From the NCBI RefSeq assembly GCF_019972295.1, contig NZ_BLJA01000001.1, forward strand, positions 1,760,117 through 1,824,116: a stretch of 64,000 bases of DNA, given 5' to 3'. The notes under the pieces are model-generated. The model was not told the origin of the DNA. It saw only the letters and a program-made list of their open reading frames with translations, and did no database searches. Source of the stretch: Geobacter sp. AOG2 (GTDB lineage Bacteria; Desulfobacterota; Desulfuromonadia; Geobacterales; Pseudopelobacteraceae). Both the position numbers and the translations under genes were made by a program. The stretch's first letter is position 1, and each line of letters starts with the position of its first letter. Of this stretch, positions 53,633-62,487 are shown piece by piece.

Positions 53633-54433
53633 TCATTCGAGTTTTTTGGCTTCTTCCCACAAGAGGTCCATGTCGGCGAGCGGAGTCTCATTAATCTTCT
53701 TGCCTTGTCTTATGAGGTTTTCCTCCACGTACTGGAAACGCAGTTGAAAGCGATTGATCGTTTTTCGTAGCGCCTCCTCGGGATTGAGCGATAGGAAGCG
53801 TCCCATGTTGACGATTGCGAACAACAGGTCTCCCAATTCATCCTCCATGCGGGTTTCATTGCCACCTTCCCAAGCCTCCTCAAACTCGTGCAATTCCTCC
53901 ATGACCTTGGCAAAGACCTGGTCTGCGTGTTCCCAGTCAAAGCCGACCCGCGAGGCCTTTTCCGTTATCTTCTGAGCCTTGAGAAGCGCTGGAAGGTGAG
54001 GCGGTACGCCGGACAGTGCGGATAGGCGTTCTTCGCCCTTCTCTGCCTTTTTGATTCGCTCCCAGTTCTCTATCTGGGAGTTGCTATCCTTGATCTGCAG
54101 GTCGCCAAAGACATGGGGATGGCGTCTGACGAGTTTATCGCAGAGTGTCTGGATAACGTCGGCCATATCGAATTCGCCTGCTTCTTCAGCGATTGCGGCA
54201 TGAAAAACCGGTTGCAGCAGCAGGTCTCCCAACTCCTCCTTCAGATGCTCCGGGGATTTTGCATCAATCGCCTCAATGACCTCGTAAGTCTCTTCAAGCA
54301 GGTAGCGCGTCAGGCTCTCATGGGTTTGTTCCGCGTCCCAGGGGCACCCCCCGGGGCCACGCAGTCGACGCATGATGTTCAGCAGCTCGTCAAAGGTGCT
54401 CTGATTGGCATGGATTTCATTCGTTGTACTCAT
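53633..54433 (-). CDS. mazG: nucleoside triphosphate pyrophosphohydrolase MazG
   Basis: The 266-residue enzyme hydrolyses (d)NTPs to monophosphates and pyrophosphate. Two MazG modules are visible: LRGPGGCPWDAEQTHESLTRYLLEETYEVIEAI and, in the second half, EEWEGGNETRMEDELGDLLFAIVNMGR-like segments with EEAWEGGNE and EDELGDLLFA; EELGDLLLQPVFHA supplies the first ExxD site. Its start overlaps the next minus-strand gene by ATGA. It runs convergent with ogt. Confidence 0.94.
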   Translation of the reverse strand: MSTTNEIHANQSTFDELLNIMRRLRGPGGCPWDAEQTHESLTRYLLEETYEVIEAIDAKSPEHLKEELGDLLLQPVFHAAIAEEAGEFDMADVIQTLCDKLVRRHPHVFGDLQIKDSNSQIENWERIKKAEKGEERLSALSGVPPHLPALLKAQKITEKASRVGFDWEHADQVFAKVMEELHEFEEAWEGGNETRMEDELGDLLFAIVNMGRFLSLNPEEALRKTINRFQLRFQYVEENLIRQGKKINETPLADMDLLWEEAKKLE

Positions 54434-55338
54434 TTTGCGGCCACCAGTTCGGCTGACAGTTCGTCGTAGACAGCCAGGGATTTTACGCTTGCCGACTCTT
54501 TCTTCGTGATGTCCTCGAAGGATTTCAGCTTTCCGTTGAAACGGCTGGCCTGGGTCTTCAGGCTGCTGGTGCTTTCGGACAGGAAGCTCTTTTCCTTAGG
54601 ATCGATATCTTTTTTCACCAGACCCTTGACCTTGTTCCAGTATTCGTCCGTTCCGCAGGCGTAGTGATTCACGCTCTCCAGAAAGGATAGGGCGCCGGAG
54701 GAGAGGTCGGCGACCGCGGCCAGTTTTGCATGGGCATCGTTCATATCCTTCAGGAGTTTCTGATCGGCATAGCGGGAGGCTTCGGTCAGCGATCTTTCGT
54801 CCAGCGGTTTGGTCGGGTCGATGGCCTCCACCAGGGAGATGAAGCGCTGGGACGAGTTCAGGTAATTAGTTACCGAAACAGAGGCACTGTTGAGTGCCAC
54901 GGTAAACTGGGTAATGAACTTGGTGAAGATCGAAGCCTGGCCGGCGTAGGGGACGGGAAGCATCCTGGCCACGACTGCCGCGTACGAACCCGCCTGGATG
55001 TAGCGGTTATAACCCGCCAAGTTGGCGCTCATCCATTTAACGAAGCCTTCAAAATCGCTGGTGGTCTGGCGTTGGGTCTTGACTTCGGCAGCGATCTCCC
55101 TGAGTCGTTGGACCTTTATCTGGCGCAGGCGTTCGACGGATATGGCCTTGACGGACTCAAGCTGTTTGACCTTTAGTTTGAGCCCTTCGTTCTCCAACTG
55201 GAGATTGAACATCTGCTCCTCGCTTGGTGTGGTCGGACCGCAGACATTTTCCTCGGCATGTACGCGGGCGGAGAATAAGAACACTAGGGCAACCAGAACA
55301 ACGGTTGTCCCGACAGATGAGCGTCGTGTTTCGAGCAT
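54430..55338 (-). CDS. exported coiled-coil protein, function unknown
   Basis: The 302-residue protein has a signal peptide (VGTTVVLVALVFLFSARVHA) followed by CGPTTPSEEQ; the Cys is after Asn-Val, so it is not a clear lipobox. A long coiled coil covers about 42-90 (MFNLQLENEGLKLKVKQLES), then a helical region, and a second Cys sits near 235 in HYACGTDEY. The two Cys might pair. I recognise no family. It is translated before and coupled to mazG, whose function it does not resemble. The promoter at 55390-55418 is a reasonable start signal. Confidence 0.6.
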   Translation of the reverse strand: MLETRRSSVGTTVVLVALVFLFSARVHAEENVCGPTTPSEEQMFNLQLENEGLKLKVKQLESVKAISVERLRQIKVQRLREIAAEVKTQRQTTSDFEGFVKWMSANLAGYNRYIQAGSYAAVVARMLPVPYAGQASIFTKFITQFTVALNSASVSVTNYLNSSQRFISLVEAIDPTKPLDERSLTEASRYADQKLLKDMNDAHAKLAAVADLSSGALSFLESVNHYACGTDEYWNKVKGLVKKDIDPKEKSFLSESTSSLKTQASRFNGKLKSFEDITKKESASVKSLAVYDELSAELVAAK

Positions 55339-55555: not shown

Positions 55556-56875
55556 ATGCCGTTCCCCGGACATTCCCGTTTTAGTCTGATCCAGAAGATG
55601 ATCATCAGCTTTGCCCTCTGCGGAGTATGCATGATGGCTGCGCTGGTGTATGCCGTTGCAGGGCTGGGCACGATGCACCGCATGGAGGAGGAAATTGCCC
55701 AAAACGACTTGGCTGCGGCGACCATTACCATAACCCTGCGCGAAATGATGCTGACACAGGAGCGCTATGTCGGCAAGTTTCAGATTTTGCACCAGCCGGA
55801 ATTTCGTGAACTTTACGACCAGAATGCGGAAAAATTCCGCTCCGAGCTGGCCTCGTTACAGCGTGTCTACCAAGGGGACGGTGTCGACAGGCTTGTGGCG
55901 GCATACGCGACGTACACCAATCTGGCCAGGCAGGTGTTCGGCGGTCGGAATGTCGATGCCACTGCCATGAAGCGGGCCACGGCGCAGGTGGAAGGTCTTA
56001 TCGAACATATCCGGGTGGAGCAGAAGGAGTCCCTGGCGAACAAGCTGAAGCTGTCCGACGAAAAAGAGGCCAAGACCGTCACCCGCTCTATAGGGTTGGC
56101 TTTTGTCGGCGTGCTGTCGGCCTTTCTGGTGGCCGGCTACCTGATTTACACCTTCGCTTCGTCAATCGGTAAGCTGCAAACCGCAACCCATCGCATTGCT
56201 GCCGGGGATTTCGACCACAATCCCGGCATTCCGCCGGGGGACGAGATCGGTACCCTGGCGCAGGATTTTACGCGTATGGCTGCCAGGCTCAAGGAACTGG
56301 AGCAAATAAGCCTTGACGCCAGCCCCCTGACGCGCCTGCCCGGCAACATCGCCATTGAACGCTCCATCAGTCGACGGTTACGTGAACGGCTGCCGTTTGC
56401 CATGTGTTACCTGGATCTGGACAACTTCAAATCCTACAATGATCGCTACGGCTACATCAAAGCCAGTGAAATACTGCGCGAGACAGGTGAGTTGATCCAT
56501 AACGCCGTCAAACGCCTGAATGACCCCGATGCCTTTGTCGGGCACATCGGCGGTGACGATTTTGTCGTCATCGTCAGCGCTCAACTGGCCAAGGCGGCCT
56601 GCCAGACGATCATCCAGGAGTTCGATGCCATGATCCCGTTCTTTTACTCGGACGAGGACCGGGCTGCCGGCTCATTCGAAGGGGTTGACCGGTACGGCGT
56701 GCCCCGTGTCTTTCCGCTCATATCCATGTCGATTGCCGTACTTGTCTGCGAGCCGGGGGATTATGCTACCGCCGCCGAGATTGCAACGGCCGCGGCCGAG
56801 GTCAAGGATCACGTCAAGGAATCATCGGGCAGCAACTATATCATCGTGAGGGAGGCAGGCAACTGTGATGCCTGA
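55556..56875 (+). CDS. membrane-bound HAMP-GGDEF protein, possible Hypr-type dinucleotide cyclase
   Basis: The 439-residue sensor has a first membrane helix at about 12-36, a periplasmic helical domain (40-176), a second membrane helix (178-201), a HAMP linker (199-252) and a GGDEF domain. The catalytic loop is GGDDF (332-336), an allowed form. The nucleotide-specificity residue is unusual: NDRYGYIKAS places Ser304 nine residues after Asn295, the spacing of PleD Asn335 to Asp344. Ser at this position is the reported mark of Hypr GGDEF enzymes such as Geobacter GacA, which make cyclic AMP-GMP. No DxLTG motif is seen; SPLTRLPGN replaces it. It is coupled to a lipoprotein-like gene. Confidence 0.85.
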   Translation: MPFPGHSRFSLIQKMIISFALCGVCMMAALVYAVAGLGTMHRMEEEIAQNDLAAATITITLREMMLTQERYVGKFQILHQPEFRELYDQNAEKFRSELASLQRVYQGDGVDRLVAAYATYTNLARQVFGGRNVDATAMKRATAQVEGLIEHIRVEQKESLANKLKLSDEKEAKTVTRSIGLAFVGVLSAFLVAGYLIYTFASSIGKLQTATHRIAAGDFDHNPGIPPGDEIGTLAQDFTRMAARLKELEQISLDASPLTRLPGNIAIERSISRRLRERLPFAMCYLDLDNFKSYNDRYGYIKASEILRETGELIHNAVKRLNDPDAFVGHIGGDDFVVIVSAQLAKAACQTIIQEFDAMIPFFYSDEDRAAGSFEGVDRYGVPRVFPLISMSIAVLVCEPGDYATAAEIATAAAEVKDHVKESSGSNYIIVREAGNCDA

Positions 56876-57392
56876 ACGGATCATTGCGCTCATGCTGGCG
56901 CTCATGCTGGCACTTGCCGGAGGCGGGTGCGGCATGTTGCGGAACAAACCGTTTCCCGAGCCCGGTTCGGCTGTTGAACAGGAACGCCGCTTCGCCGGGG
57001 CACTGCATTATCTGATGCAGGGAAAAGAGCGGGAGGCACAAGGACTGTTAGAAAAGGTTATAGACGGCCAAGCGTTGTCCGGCGTGACGGATGAAGCGCT
57101 TTTTCGACTTGCCCTGCTCTATCTGCGTGACGAAGGGGGGAAGGGCGATACTCATGCCCATGCTCTGTTGGTTCGATTGAAAAAGGAGTATCCCCGCAGC
57201 ATCTGGACCCGGCAGGCGGCACCTTTAATTGCATATCTGGCGGGAGTGGGCTCACTTCGCGACAACCAGCGTGAGCTGAAAATCCTGCGAGAGCGAAACT
57301 TATCCCTCACCCGCGAGAACAAGGAACTGCACCAAAGTCTCGATCGCCTGAAAAATCTGGATCTTGAGCTGGACCAAAAGATCAAGCGCTGA
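56865..57392 (+). CDS. probable lipoprotein with C-terminal coiled coil
   Basis: The 175-residue protein starts inside the GGDEF gene at GTG 56865, nine bases after GGAGG; ATG 56868 is also possible. It has a hydrophobic leader (IIALMLALMLALAGGGCGML) with Gly-Gly-Gly-Cys, a weak lipobox. A TPR-like helical part (LHYLMQGKEREAQGLLEKVI) and a C-terminal coiled coil rich in Leu, Glu and Arg (LKILRERNLSLTRENKEL) follow. It may be the periplasmic partner of the GGDEF sensor; the role is otherwise unknown. Confidence 0.65.
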   Translation: MMPERIIALMLALMLALAGGGCGMLRNKPFPEPGSAVEQERRFAGALHYLMQGKEREAQGLLEKVIDGQALSGVTDEALFRLALLYLRDEGGKGDTHAHALLVRLKKEYPRSIWTRQAAPLIAYLAGVGSLRDNQRELKILRERNLSLTRENKELHQSLDRLKNLDLELDQKIKR

Positions 57393-57556: not shown

Positions 57557-58681
57557 TCACGCGGTGCGTTTTTTTTGTTCACTCCCCAGATATTCCCCCA
57601 GAAAGGCCCCTTTGTATTCCATGAACCGGTTGTTGGCGATCGCCTCCCTGATCTCTGCCATCATGGTCAGGTAGAAGTGGATATTGTGCAGGGCGGACAA
57701 TACCGCCGACAGCACCTCGTTGGCGACGAACAGGTGATGGAGATAGGCGCGGGTAAAATGACGGCAGGTATAGCAGTCGCAACTGGGGTCGATGGGGAAA
57801 AAGTCGCGTTTGTAGCTCTTGTTGGTCAGGCGAATCTTACCCCGTCGGGTGAAGAGTGTGGCACTGCGGGCGTAACGGGTTGGAATGACGCAGTCGAACA
57901 TGTCGATGCCGCGTTCGACGCTCTCCAGTATGTCCTCGGGCAGGCCAACCCCCATCAGGTAGCGTGGTTTGTTGTCCGGCAAGTGGGGCGCTGTCCAGCC
58001 CACTACCTTTTTGAGCAGTTCCAGCCCCTCGCCGACGCTGACTCCGCCGATGGCGTAGCCGGGCAGGTCCAATTTGCGCATCTCGCGGGCGCACATGGCC
58101 CGCAGATCCTCGTAAACACTTCCCTGGACGATGCCGAACAGAGCCTGGCCGTTGTCGGTCATGGCATTTTGGCACTCCTTGAGCCAGCGGATGGTTTTGC
58201 GGGTTGACTGTTCGGCATACGCTTTATCGCAGGGGTAGGGGATACACTCGTCGAAGGCCATGATGATGTCGGCCCCCAGGTCCTGTTGGATTCGGGTGGC
58301 ACTGGCCGGGTCGAGATAGATCTCCTCACCGGTCACCTCATGTTTGAAAAAGACGCCGTCCGCGGTGATCCGTTTGTTGGGAAGCGAAAAAACCTGGAAT
58401 CCGCCGGAATCGGTCAGGATCGGCTTGTCCCACGCCATGAACTTGTGCAGGCCTCCGGCCTTTTTCACCAGACCTTCACCAGGTTGCAGGTGGAGGTGAT
58501 AGGTATTGCTGAGGATAATCCTTGCGCCGGTCTCTTCAATCTGCGCCGGGGTGAGCGGTTTCATGGCGCCGTGGGTGGCCACCGGCATGAAAATGGGCGT
58601 GGGTATTTCGCCACGGGAAGTGGTGACAATCCCCAGACGGGCAGCGGAATGCTTGTCTTTTTTGATCAAATGGAATAACAT
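57557..58681 (-). CDS. tgt: queuine/preQ1 tRNA-ribosyltransferase
   Basis: The 374-residue TIM-barrel enzyme exchanges guanine for preQ1 at tRNA position 34. It contains ILSNTYHLHLQPGEGLVKKAGGL, the active-site region LTDSGGFQVFSL, the PreQ1 pocket AIGGVSVGEG and the zinc Cys/His cluster in DPSCDCYTCRHFTRAYLHHL. Length is normal. It is monocistronic. queD and queE lie about 28 kb away; the other queuosine genes are not in the window. Confidence 0.95.
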   Translation of the reverse strand: MLFHLIKKDKHSAARLGIVTTSRGEIPTPIFMPVATHGAMKPLTPAQIEETGARIILSNTYHLHLQPGEGLVKKAGGLHKFMAWDKPILTDSGGFQVFSLPNKRITADGVFFKHEVTGEEIYLDPASATRIQQDLGADIIMAFDECIPYPCDKAYAEQSTRKTIRWLKECQNAMTDNGQALFGIVQGSVYEDLRAMCAREMRKLDLPGYAIGGVSVGEGLELLKKVVGWTAPHLPDNKPRYLMGVGLPEDILESVERGIDMFDCVIPTRYARSATLFTRRGKIRLTNKSYKRDFFPIDPSCDCYTCRHFTRAYLHHLFVANEVLSAVLSALHNIHFYLTMMAEIREAIANNRFMEYKGAFLGEYLGSEQKKRTA

Positions 58682-58877
58682 TTAGCCCCTCGTTATTAAG
58701 TCCGTTCTAAAGCCGTTCGCATCATAACCACGACGACAGCATCACTGGAAGGTGCTGGTGTGAATCATGTCATGTGTCCCCAACCAAGAGTTGCAACAGC
58801 GTGTAGCTTACTATCAGAATGTCAACCCAAATGCAATCCCGCTGACGACTGGGATGCTGAGGTGTTTTAACGGTATT
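58682..58877. other. spacer between tgt and the frd promoter
   Basis: Roughly 200 bases upstream of both tgt (minus) and frdC (plus). A TTGACA-like -35 (reverse of 58820-58825) could serve tgt but has no good -10. No RNA gene or repeat recognised. Confidence 0.3.
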
Positions 58878-58923
58878 CTGTATACACAAAACCCTTGCAA
58901 TTTTTTATAACGGTGTTTACTAT
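58878..58923 (+). promoter_or_regulatory. promoter and TGTATAC site of frdCAB
   Basis: TTGCAA (58895-58900), 17 bases, TACTAT (58918-58923). CTGTATACAC (58878-58887) ends seven bases before the -35 and shares the TGTATAC core with the icd promoter region. About 200 bases of leader follow before the frdC start. Confidence 0.6.
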
Positions 58924-59005
58924 GCCCTGTCTGGATTTCGCAGAGGAACCTATTTGGCATTAATTGCATGACTGCCGCATCTAAATACACTCGAAGGAGG
59001 ATGGA

Positions 59006-59092
59006 ATGCAGGTTGTCTTAAGGTTGTGCTGGCGTGGTCCCCCGCGATTTTCCCGTTTTCCGCATGATTTACACTCATTCAAACTCAACTGA
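59006..59092 (+). CDS. possible 28-aa leader peptide of frdC
   Basis: ATG 59006 has a strong AGGAGG five bases upstream and encodes a 28-residue basic peptide rich in Arg, Pro and Phe. Its TGA overlaps an ATG (TGATG at 59090-59094) that begins an in-frame 14-codon extension of frdC. This arrangement suggests a translated leader that couples to frdC, although the main frdC start at 59134 has its own AAGGA site. It could be chance, but the ribosome-binding site is among the strongest in the region. Confidence 0.35.
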   Translation: MQVVLRLCWRGPPRFSRFPHDLHSFKLN

Positions 59093-59133
59093 TGTTCAAG
59101 CAGTATCACCATTTTGAAAAGGAAGGAACTTTT

Positions 59134-59802
59134 ATGCAACTGTCATCCTCGTCTATCGGCAGAAAGATCCTGATGGCGGTCACAGGCCAGCTTATGATCC
59201 TGTTTGTCCTGGTCCATCTGATCGGCAACACGACTATCTTTGGGTGGCTTCATGGGGGCATCAACGCCTACGCCGAGCATCTCCACGCTTTGCCGCCGCT
59301 CGTGTGGGCATTTCGGCTCTTCATGCTGGCGGCCGTTTCCATTCACATCTGGTACGGCATTCAGTTGACCATCGAGAACCGCGGCGGCAGACCGCAGCAG
59401 TATGCCGTCAAGGCAACCCAGAAGGCCACCTTCGCCAGTGAGAACATGATCTGGAGCGGCCTCCTCATCCTTGCTTTCATTGTGTATCATCTGCTGCACT
59501 TCACTATGAAAGTGATTCCGGGCATGGCGCTGGTGACCGACGCCGAGGGTACGGTCAACGTATATACCATGGTGGTTTCCAGTTTCCAGAGCTTCTTTGT
59601 GTTCTCCATCTATGCAGGCGCAATGGTGGCCCTGTTCCTCCACCTCTCCCACGGTATCCAGAGTTCCTCGCAAACTATAGGCTGTAGTAATGATCGCACG
59701 CTACCAGTCATTGTAAAGGCGAGCACGCTGGTGGCTCTGGCCTTGCTGTTGGGGTACGTTGCCATCCCGTTGTCAATTATTTCTGGATTTCTGAAAGGTT
59801 AA
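59134..59802 (+). CDS. sdhC: succinate dehydrogenase/fumarate reductase cytochrome b subunit (b558 family)
   Basis: The 222-residue membrane anchor holds heme b and passes electrons to or from menaquinone. Five hydrophobic segments are visible: [21 protein letters not shown], the next with [66 protein letters not shown] and the terminal [18 protein letters not shown]. Several His suit axial ligands. ATG 59134 (AAGGAACTTTT) is chosen over an in-frame ATG at 59092 that would add 14 atypical residues. It is the first gene of the CAB operon. Confidence 0.88.
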
Positions 59803-59812
59803 GGGGGTTACC

Positions 59813-61729
59813 GTGATACTTGATGGAAAATGTCCAACCGGACCAATTGAGCAAACCTGGGACAAACACCGCTTTGACCTGAAGCTGGTAAATCCCGCCA
59901 ATAAACGTAAATACAACGTCATCGTGGTCGGCACCGGCCTGGCCGGTGGTGCCGCCGCCGCCACTCTCGGGGAGTTGGGCTACAACGTGCAGGCATTCTG
60001 TTATCAGGATTCGCCCCGGCGCGCCCATTCTATCGCTGCTCAGGGCGGGATCAACGCCGCCAAGGCGTATCCCAACGACGGCGACTCCATCTACCGCCTG
60101 TTCTACGACACCATCAAGGGGGGTGACTTCCGTGCCCGTGAGGCCGACGTGTGGCGCCTGGCCCAGGTGTCCAACAACATCATCGACCAGTGCGTGGCCC
60201 AAGGCGTGCCCTTTGCACGTGACTACGCCGGCTACCTTGACAACCGCTCCTTCGGTGGCGCCCAGGTGTCCCGTACGTTCTATGCCCGCGGTCAAACGGG
60301 GCAACAACTCCTGTTGGGCGCCTATGCAGCCCTGTCCCGCCAGATCAAGGCAGGTACGGTCAAGATGTACAACCGCCGCGAGATGCTTGATCTGGTCGTT
60401 GTTGACGGCGTGGCCAAGGGAATTACGGTGCGCAACCTGATCTCCGGCGAACTGGAAAGCTATGCGGCCGATGCGGTTTGCCTCTGCACCGGCGGCTACG
60501 TGAACGTTTTCTATCTCTCCACCAACGCCATGGGATGCTCGGTCACGGCCAACTGGAAGGCCCACAAGAAAGGCGCTTTCTTCGCCAACCCTTGCTACAC
60601 CCAGATCCATCCGACCTGCATTCCCCAGGCTGGCGACTATCAATCCAAGCTGACCCTCATGTCGGAGTCTCTGCGCAATGACGGCCGTTGCTGGGTGCCC
60701 AAGAAGAAAGAAGACCTGGGCAAGCATCCCAACGATATCGCGGAAGAGGATCGCGATTACTACCTCGAGCGCAAGTATCCCTCCTTCGGCAACTTGGCCC
60801 CCCGTGACATCGCCTCCCGCGCCGCCAAGGAACAGTGCGACGATGGTCGCGGCGTCGGCCCGGGCGGCCGTGGCGTGTATCTGGATTTCAGCAGTGCCAT
60901 CAAACGCGTCGGCGAAGACACCATTCGTGAACGCTACGGCAATCTGTTCGAGATGTATGAGAAGATCACTGACGAAAATGGTTACAAACGCCCCATGCGT
61001 ATGTATCCCGCGCCGCACTACTCCATGGGCGGTTTGTGGGTCGATTACAACCTGATGAGCAATGTCCCCGGCCTGTTTGTGCTGGGCGAAGCCAACTTCT
61101 CGGTCCATGGCGCCAACCGCCTGGGTGCCTCGGCCCTCATGCAGGGTCTGGCCGACGGTTACTTCGTCATCCCCTACACCATCGGCGGCTACCTTGCCAC
61201 GGTCAAACCCTCTGGCACGGCCACCGACAACCCCGAGTTCAAGAAGTCGGTGGATGATGTGGCGGCATATCGCGACAGACTGCTCAAAATCAACGGCAAA
61301 AAGACCGTCAGCGAATTCATGCGGGAGCTGGGCGGCCTCATGTGGGAAAACTGCGGTATGGCCCGCAGCAAGGAGTCTCTGGAGACCAACCTCAAGAAAA
61401 TTCCAGCCCTGAGGGAAGAGTTCTGGAAGAATGTCAAGGTCACCGGGACCGGTAACGATCTCAATCAGGATCTGGAAAACGCTGGCCGTACCGCCGACTT
61501 CCTGGAGTTCGGTGAACTGCTCTGCCGCGATGCCCTGCACCGCAATGAGTCGTGCGGCGGCCACTTCCGCGTGGAATACCAGTACGACGACGGTGAAGCC
61601 AAGCGCAACGACGTGGACTACTGCTATGTCGGTGCCTGGGAATACAAAGGCGATAATAAAGAGTCAGAACTACACAAGGAGCCGTTAAAGTTCGATAACG
61701 TACATCTCGCCGTAAGGAGCTACAAATAA
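59813..61729 (+). CDS. sdhA: succinate dehydrogenase/fumarate reductase flavoprotein subunit
   Basis: The 638-residue FAD subunit interconverts succinate and fumarate. It carries the dinucleotide motif [22 protein letters not shown] at residue 33, the FAD-linking region [18 protein letters not shown], substrate residues HPTCIP and the active-site segment [11 protein letters not shown], and [28 protein letters not shown] 59813 follows AAGGGGG. In relatives of this group the same complex can act in either direction (inference). Confidence 0.96.
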
Positions 61730-62487
61730 TGAGCGATCACAAGACCATGACACTGACCCTCATCGTGTGGCGCCAGAAGGGGCCTAACGATCCCGGCAAA
61801 TTCGAAACCTATACCGCTAAGGGCATCACTGATCATCACTCCTTCCTGGAGATGCTCGATGTCGTCAACGAAGACCTGATCCACGCCGGCAAGGAGCCGA
61901 TCGTCTTCGATCACGACTGCCGCGAAGGCATCTGCGGCATGTGCTCCCAGGTCATCAACGGCAAGGCGCATGGCGGCCAGGAGCGCACCACGGTCTGCCA
62001 GCTTCACATGCGCAAGTTCAAAGATGGGGACACTATCTATATCGAACCCTGGAGAGCTCGCGCTTTTCCGATCATCAAGGATCTGATCGTGGACCGCTCC
62101 GCCCTCGATACCATCGTCCAGGCCGGTGCCTACGTTTCCTGCCATACCGGCGGGGTGCCCGACGGCAACGCCATCCTGATCCCGAAACCGGCTGCCGATG
62201 AGGCCATGGACGCCGCCGAATGTATCGGCTGCGGGGCCTGTGTGGCCGGTTGCCCCAACGGCGCCGCCATGCTGTTCACCGGCGCCAAGGTATCCCAATA
62301 CGCGCTTCTGCCCCAGGGCAAATCAGAGGCAGCTACGCGTGTCAAGAATCTGGTTGAAGCCATGGCACAGTGCGGATTTGGTAATTGCACCAATCACTAC
62401 GAGTGCCAGGTAGCCTGCCCCAAGGGAATCAACGTCAAGTTCATTGCGCGAATGAACCGCGAATTTTTGAAGGCTCAGTTTTCCTAA
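61729..62487 (+). CDS. sdhB: succinate dehydrogenase/fumarate reductase iron-sulfur subunit
   Basis: The 252-residue subunit has the [2Fe-2S] set [20 protein letters not shown], then C-terminal [4Fe-4S] and [3Fe-4S] sets [17 protein letters not shown] and [15 protein letters not shown]. The start shares one base with the sdhA stop (TAATG). It completes the CAB operon and is followed by a strong terminator. Electrons pass from FAD through these clusters to the SdhC heme. Confidence 0.95.

Follow-up and report, generated by a model that had tools for sequence, protein, structure and literature searches.

A membrane-bound GGDDF cyclase with the Hypr serine, very probably orthologous to GSU1937, and its conserved lipoprotein neighbor in Geobacter sp. 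AOG2

The window analyzed here is a 64,000-nucleotide stretch of the Geobacter sp. AOG2 genome, which is 3.92 Mb in size and lies near Oryzomonas (the O. japonica protein is 92% identical to the cyclase in the window). Two overlapping forward-strand genes, sharing 11 bases (56865-56875), are the subject of this work. Their features are as follows.

55556-56875, forward strand: membrane GGDDF cyclase, 439 amino acids (P0001), built of a transmembrane segment, a periplasmic helical sensor, a second transmembrane segment, HAMP and a GGDEF fold
55673-56095, forward strand: periplasmic four-helix-bundle sensor, about residues 40-180 (4HB_MCP_1 below cut-off; AlphaFold2 helices; VIA-align; hhalign)
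56141-56296, forward strand: HAMP domain, residues 196-247 (Pfam PF00672, E 3.5e-12)
56315-56851, forward strand: GGDEF-fold domain, residues 254-432 (Pfam PF00990, E 1.8e-12, residues 258-352)
56438-56440, forward strand: Asn295 codon, equivalent to PleD Asn335 and GmGacA Asn339 (translation, alignment)
56465-56467, forward strand: Ser304 codon, equivalent to PleD Asp344 and GmGacA Ser348 (translation, alignments)
56549-56563, forward strand: GGDDF motif, residues 332-336, with Glu replaced by Asp at the presumed catalytic base
56865-57392, forward strand: 175-amino-acid lipoprotein, Cys22, with TPR-like helices at residues 33-108 and a C-terminal helix at 113-174; overlaps the cyclase gene
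57201-57386, forward strand: long C-terminal helix of the lipoprotein, with the consensus tail NKELRQSIERLKxLDLELEQK

Upstream and divergent from the cyclase gene, the reverse strand (54430-55338) encodes a 302-amino-acid, exported-looking protein that has no Pfam match and is matched in only some of 36 related loci. Downstream, at 57557-62487, lie tgt and frdCAB-like succinate dehydrogenase genes. Many relatives have these behind the cyclase-lipoprotein pair too; tgt was matched in 23 of the 36 related loci, some of these matches being short.

The first-pass annotation had described the cyclase as membrane-bound with HAMP, and both the transmembrane segments and the HAMP match were recovered. 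An AlphaFold2 model made from 31 sequences, the window's own included, consists of long helices and a GGDEF fold (mean pLDDT 82.1, pTM 0.43). When this model was compared by VIA-align, its GGDEF-fold domain superposed on 3bre (Z 17.2, rmsd 3.1 over 155) and on GacA 6d9m (Z 15.9, rmsd 3.4 over 150). The Pfam scan of the cyclase detected no EAL, HD-GYP or other partner catalytic domain.

The translation reads N295-D-R-Y-G-Y300-I-K-A303-S304 and places Ser304 nine residues past Asn295, as the first-pass annotation had it. The further claim that Ser304 occupies the position of PleD Asp344 and of the GacA serine is borne out by alignment: S304 shares a column with the Ser of L016, the GacA orthologue in the same genome, and the match of L016 to PDB 6d9m, the GGDEF domain of Geobacter GacA, has an E-value of 2.5e-70 and aligns the two serines. 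After removal of identical sequences, Ser304 and GGDD are kept in 50 of 50 distinct rows (the window cyclase and 49 orthologues), so the serine is not a chance occurrence; the metal and base-contact residues are likewise retained in all 50. Two paralogues in the same alignment, L115 and L116, carry Asp at position 304 and lie outside these rows. N295, Y300, A303 and S304 are invariant in 31 aligned rows, including the window, and the annotation had offered Tyr300 and Ala303 as pocket evidence for a Hypr enzyme. We rejected this part of the signature: GacA itself has His and Gly at these places and Gly303 is common among Ser-type relatives, which makes the two residues lineage marks.

Within this genome the serine is rare. 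Among 31 aligned GGDEF domains the position holds Asp in 27, Ser in two (the window cyclase and L016), Thr in one (L023) and Arg in one (L028). L023 (G000:C1:3115939-3116409) combines Thr at the Ser304 position with GGDEY and is a third candidate Hypr enzyme of the genome. The L028 domain (Arg at 304, SRDEF, motif lost) shares a 1024-amino-acid frame at G000:C1:3410800-3415300 with a second domain, L115, which has GGDDF and Asp at 304. L116 (G000:C1:2462000-2466500) is a 319-amino-acid GGDDF protein with Asp at the base-contact place, whose N-terminus looks receiver-like by eye yet has no Pfam receiver match; matches in frames of 310-365 amino acids occur in 27 of 57 genomes.

The signature motif departs from what the first-pass annotation assumed. 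It had treated the motif as an intact GGDEF, and residues 332-336 read GGDDF, which falls outside the [G/A/S]G[D/E]E[F/Y] pattern used to recognize Hypr enzymes. The third motif position is Asp (D334), in agreement with the Goldilocks rule that Hypr enzymes have Asp, not Glu, there, as given in the accessible part of the source (PMC6456294). The fourth residue is the anomalous one. In GacA it is Glu, which presumably serves as the base activating the hydroxyl across the dimer, and a Gln substitution there abolishes activity; the same eLife survey, as far as its available text goes, reports Ser/Thr-type enzymes only with GGDE[F/Y] (PMC6456294). Since GGDDF lacks this Glu, the usual rule predicts an inactive enzyme. 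Two further sites were read from the sequence and the alignment. The cross-dimer place is N264, where canonical enzymes carry Arg; Asn stands there in 139 of 156 GGDDF-family domains, Asp-types included, and thus does not discriminate within the family. An RxxD I-site is absent from the window cyclase, D323 and A326 occupying its places if, as we presume, the spacing follows that of PleD.

We then placed the enzyme within the wider GGDDF family. A match to the GGDDF domain (E ≤ 1e-15) is present in 125 of 297 genomes sampled from the phylum. Family loci were taken from the similarity list by rank, and because lower-ranking matches were mostly left out, the sample leans towards domains similar to the Ser-type query. 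Of 156 distinct aligned domains (identical sequences removed), 155 have Asp as the fourth motif residue, and at the PleD-344 place 81 carry Ser, 67 Asp and eight Asn. The base-contact residue goes together with membrane topology: at least two predicted transmembrane segments lie upstream of the domain in 88 of 88 Ser/Asn-type loci (the window not counted) versus 1 of 67 Asp-types. Fifteen of the 155 loci have a cyclase frame truncated upstream, and with whole frames only the counts are 84 of 84 versus 1 of 56. In a sample scanned with Pfam, HAMP was found in 7 of 7 Ser/Asn-types versus 0 of 3 Asp-types. The Asn-bearing domains (L130, L141, L146, L186, L195, L217, L236 and L237) are all of the membrane type and could possibly have a third base specificity.

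The serine of this family is distinct in origin from that of GacA. In a tree built without columns 300, 303, 304 and 335 and without the GacA loci L168 and L172, all 110 GGDDF rows fall on one side (SH-aLRT 100) and the seven GacA orthologues fall among this genome's canonical enzymes. A mixture-model tree of 60 rows chosen from 137, in which the tested groups were defined by trait once the first tree was known, rejected a single group of GGDDF Ser-types plus GacA (18 and 5 rows of the 60; p-AU 7.5e-6), which indicates that the Hypr serine arose separately in the two lines. In the same tree the Ser- and Asn-types lie on one side of a branch whose support of 85 is not conclusive.

A characterized protein of the same description exists. 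According to the accessible text of PMC8835794, GSU1937 of G. sulfurreducens is a transmembrane HAMP protein with the Hypr Ser and GGDDF, is reported to make cGAMP, and is alone among 28 GGDEF enzymes other than GacA in having this Ser. In a strain lacking it, the signal of a cGAMP reporter fell by about 25% with fumarate and by 70% with Fe(III) citrate (PMC8835794, same part), and in a source seen in part GSU1937 is listed as down-regulated in a gsu1771 mutant. The window cyclase matches this published description, rather than being compared residue by residue, in its transmembrane-HAMP architecture, Hypr Ser, GGDDF, lack of EAL or HD-GYP, and coexistence with GacA. As the best stand-in we used L313, a protein 50% identical to the window cyclase that combines Ser with GGDDF and is accompanied by the lipoprotein gene. 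Its genome, 70% complete, was the one with the GacA segment closest to G. metallireducens GacA (94% identity); the other match in that genome has Asp, in keeping with the report that GSU1937 alone shares the Ser with GacA. Architecture, motif and the L313 genome, taken as Geobacter, make it very probable that the window cyclase is orthologous to GSU1937 and represents it in the Oryzomonas group. As to the lipoprotein neighbor, the words lipoprotein and GSU1938 are absent from the text of PMC8835794, the available part of which names neither a sensed signal nor a partner protein for GSU1937.

GacA (GSU1658, Gmet_1914; 6d9m) shares with the window cyclase the Ser nine residues past Asn, Asp at the third motif position and a non-Arg cross-dimer residue, and differs in being soluble, in its canonical GGDE[F/Y] and in the separate origin of its Ser. 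A receiver and GAF part, named after the PDB title, also sets it apart. GacA orthologues (E ≤ 1e-100) are present in 49 of 57 genomes searched, the present one included.

The coupling of the cyclase to a lipoprotein-like gene, also claimed by the first-pass annotation, is real and conserved across relatives. Cys22 is invariant in the alignment of related lipoproteins, and the structural model (pLDDT 89.2) comprises a TPR-like helical part and one C-terminal helix of 62 residues. Within the TPR part, TDEALF and P-x-S-x-W match the C-terminal tail in degree of conservation. We called a lipoprotein gene by our own lipobox rule in short genes starting -70 to +160 nucleotides from the cyclase stop; 149 of 155 loci were testable, the six lacking downstream room being left out of the denominators. 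By this rule the gene stands next to 81 of 84 Ser/Asn-type cyclases versus 1 of 65 Asp-types, the former made up of 59 of 61 Geobacterales Ser-types, 16 of 17 other Ser-types and 6 of 6 Asn-types. The same rule found no such gene at three Ser-type loci with room (L038, L039 and L132).

A profile HMM built from the 59 distinct Geobacterales lipoproteins, window included, matches all 22 others (E 3e-16 to 8e-5; hhalign probability 99.3%). These 22 score 13.2 to 50.4 bits, versus 3.3 bits for the best of 585 background ORFs from the same loci, with the qualifications that the weakest two (L124 and L210) are marginal and that coiled coil adds bias to the scores. On this profile evidence the lipoproteins beside Ser/Asn-type cyclases are homologous, and their pairing, found within one clade (support 85), may go back to a single ancestral event. 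The Pfam scan of the lipoprotein gave only a sub-threshold TPR_6 match and no OmpA match, and a PDB sequence search with its profile returned BamD- or TPR-type and chance matches only.

The periplasmic part of the cyclase suggests how such a neighbor could act. By its predicted structure the sensor is a four-helix bundle, superposing in VIA-align on LytSN 5xsd (Z 15.8, rmsd 1.5, 109 aligned) and McpN 6gcv (Z 15.1, rmsd 1.7, 111 aligned); a search of PDB sequences with the periplasmic domain alone returned nothing meaningful. By hhalign the sensor is related to that of a HAMP histidine kinase at L300 in a relative's genome (probability 97.7%, E 8e-12); a weaker relationship, to E. coli QseE, is possible at a probability of 48% (E 2.8e-5). 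The latter alignment puts E69-R70...I77-L78 in register with E69-R70...V77-L78 of QseE, the stretch that contacts QseG; R70 and I77 are invariant in 31 aligned rows and E69 and L78 are not. The L300 locus (G019:C1:976000-982500) encodes, in a row, the HAMP kinase, a 436-amino-acid TPR lipoprotein and a sigma-54 response regulator, an order that looks QseEGF-like. Our lipoprotein profile matches that TPR lipoprotein at E 3.5e-7. Other TPR-type places match equally weakly (G015:C34, E 7.1e-8; G013:C35, E 5.4e-7; G008:C3, E 5.2e-6), so this link may reflect generic TPR similarity. A weak sensor match in the window's own genome, L301, was considered as a kinase pair and set aside, its ORF being chemoreceptor-like by eye.

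The outer-membrane lipoprotein QseG consists of a globular helical N-terminal part and a long C-terminal helix; as a dimer it sits astride the four-helix-bundle sensor of QseE, a HAMP kinase, and turns the kinase on, as described in the accessible part of PMC12691602. The resemblance of our pair to QseE/QseG (GlrK/QseG; PDB 9M06-9M08) lies in a four-helix-bundle periplasmic sensor with HAMP, the ER...[IV]L stretch in register, and an adjacent lipoprotein with a globular helical N-terminal part and one long C-terminal helix; the difference lies in the output, a histidine kinase in QseE and a cyclase here. Sequence comparison did not relate the two lipoproteins. Three hhalign alignments against E. 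coli QseG were not significant (probability 4.6%, 0.1% and 0.4%), PF13942 (YfhG/QseG) was absent from our lipoprotein at E ≤ 0.01 while matching E. coli QseG at 1.5e-80, and QseG was absent among the best 50 Foldseek and best 50 VIA-align matches listed, from libraries that may lack 9M06-9M08. We dropped the idea that the lipoprotein is a QseG homologue on the 4.6% hhalign probability and the missing PF13942 match, and with no detectable homology the proposal concerns a QseG-like mode of action and not identity with QseG. YfiBNR/TpbB of Pseudomonas, as known from a source available in part, offers the other precedent of a membrane HAMP-GGDEF protein under periplasmic control involving an outer-membrane lipoprotein. 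YfiB is an OmpA-like protein that acts through YfiR. We rejected YfiBNR as a model, the window lipoprotein having no OmpA match, unlike YfiB, and the gene on the opposite side of the cyclase having no Pfam match.

Our main reading, to which we assign a probability of roughly 0.7, is that the window encodes a membrane Hypr GGDDF cyclase, the GSU1937 orthologue, with 3',3'-cGAMP as its predicted main product and a lipoprotein that probably gates it as QseG gates QseE. Whether such a domain is catalytic at all has to be weighed against the substitution of the presumed general base: it could instead be an inactive nucleotide-binding receptor or scaffold, with the lipoprotein sensing the envelope for some other output. 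PA3258, a GGDDF/EAL protein, failed to increase c-di-GMP, and in E. coli no activity was seen for full-length GSU1937 or for three of the four constructs that joined its GGDDF domain to the N-terminus of GacA; yet the fourth fusion gave both cGAMP and c-di-GMP signals there and was dead as a GADDF mutant (all from the accessible part of PMC8835794). Conservation of both motif Asp residues in 155 of 156 family domains, together with the conserved contacts, does not look like an active site in decay, and the window cyclase has no partner catalytic domain. The silence of full-length GSU1937 could be explained if an activating lipoprotein partner was missing from E. coli. We consider an inactive domain unlikely. 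Equally improbable, in our judgment, is an active enzyme that serves mainly as a diguanylate cyclase in the cell, with cGAMP as a minor product and GacA as its real source. The c-di-GMP signal of the active fusion was comparable to that of GacA in E. coli (PMC8835794, available text), and a GacA orthologue is encoded in the same genome. However, a source seen in part states that GacA too makes c-di-GMP in E. coli and is cGAMP-selective in Geobacter, and on Fe(III) the gacA deletion lowered the cGAMP reporter by 10%, versus 70% for deletion of GSU1937 (PMC8835794, same part). Outside that paper, the literature available in part yielded no active GGDDF diguanylate cyclase.

The competing view that we take most seriously, while leaning against it, concerns the second gene: the lipoprotein could be a BamD-, YbgF- or YfgM-like envelope protein that is merely adjacent and does not regulate the cyclase. 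Its best Foldseek matches are the TPR domains of BamD and YbgF (E 5.6e-3 and weaker) and its best VIA-align match is YfgM (Z 13.5, rmsd 2.2 over 91), and the BamD model TIGR03302 reaches 25.3 bits on it against a cut-off of 81.4. A bystander would not readily account for a pairing that recurs across the phylum with membrane cyclases of the Ser/Asn-type and not with Asp-types, nor for a C-terminal helix that is strongly conserved besides TDEALF and P-x-S-x-W; the kinase with a related sensor that adjoins a TPR lipoprotein at L300 is a further point against it.

In the mechanism that we favor for the gated Hypr cyclase, two GGDDF domains of a dimer would each hold one purine nucleoside triphosphate. 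With Ser304 instead of a GTP-fixing Asp, either GTP or ATP would be accepted; D334 would hold metal, and D335, in place of Glu, would serve as the base activating the substrate of the partner. The product would be mainly 3',3'-cGAMP with some c-di-GMP. By analogy with the reporter and biosensor evidence for GSU1937, the window cyclase very probably makes cGAMP. Input would arrive through the periplasmic four-helix bundle and HAMP. By analogy with QseG the lipoprotein probably binds and gates the cyclase, its long C-terminal helix probably spanning the periplasm and setting the state of the bundle as QseG does for QseE. Of the first-pass reading, a membrane cGAMP synthase coupled to a lipoprotein gene is supported by the likeness to GSU1937; the intact GGDEF motif and the Ala/Tyr argument are not supported.

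Candidate readers of the nucleotide lie elsewhere in the genome. No Rfam riboswitch match occurs within the 64-kb window, so there is no local cGAMP read-out. Across the genome, 15 of 16 class I riboswitches listed score above the Rfam cut-off. Seven of them (L104-L110) carry A in place of the G of the c-di-GMP consensus at unpaired model position 11 (alignments were seen for four of the seven and the rest read by position); of the remaining eight above the cut-off, L111 has U there and seven have G. The G20A form of GEMM-I is a cGAMP sensor, according to the accessible part of PMC11352751. By our own mapping, A at model position 11 would correspond to this G20A change, and these GEMM-Ib-type riboswitches may be the readers of the cGAMP made by the window cyclase.

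The cGAMP-making GGDDF cyclase is already known from GSU1937 and is not a new enzyme type. We did not find the lipoprotein partnership, the separate origin of the serine or the Asn variants described in the literature searched, and no paper title in the literature available in part pairs a diguanylate cyclase with a QseG-type lipoprotein. A broader proposal, tentative and in our view rather short of an even bet, is that the two genes form a phylum-wide module in which a QseG-like outer-membrane lipoprotein would directly switch on a cyclic-dinucleotide synthase across the periplasm, reporting on the cell exterior during metal reduction, with the Asn304-types having a third base specificity. 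With the serine of separate origin in GacA and in the GGDDF enzymes, a single genome holds enzymes that followed the D-to-S route towards cGAMP on at least two occasions. The GGDDF family itself, with its Asp, Ser and Asn members, amounts to a natural experiment on base specificity. The conserved lipoprotein partner provides a concrete, testable input for GSU1937-type cyclases, and a QseG-like lipoprotein switch, if it operates as proposed, would be a new class of input for cGAMP signaling.
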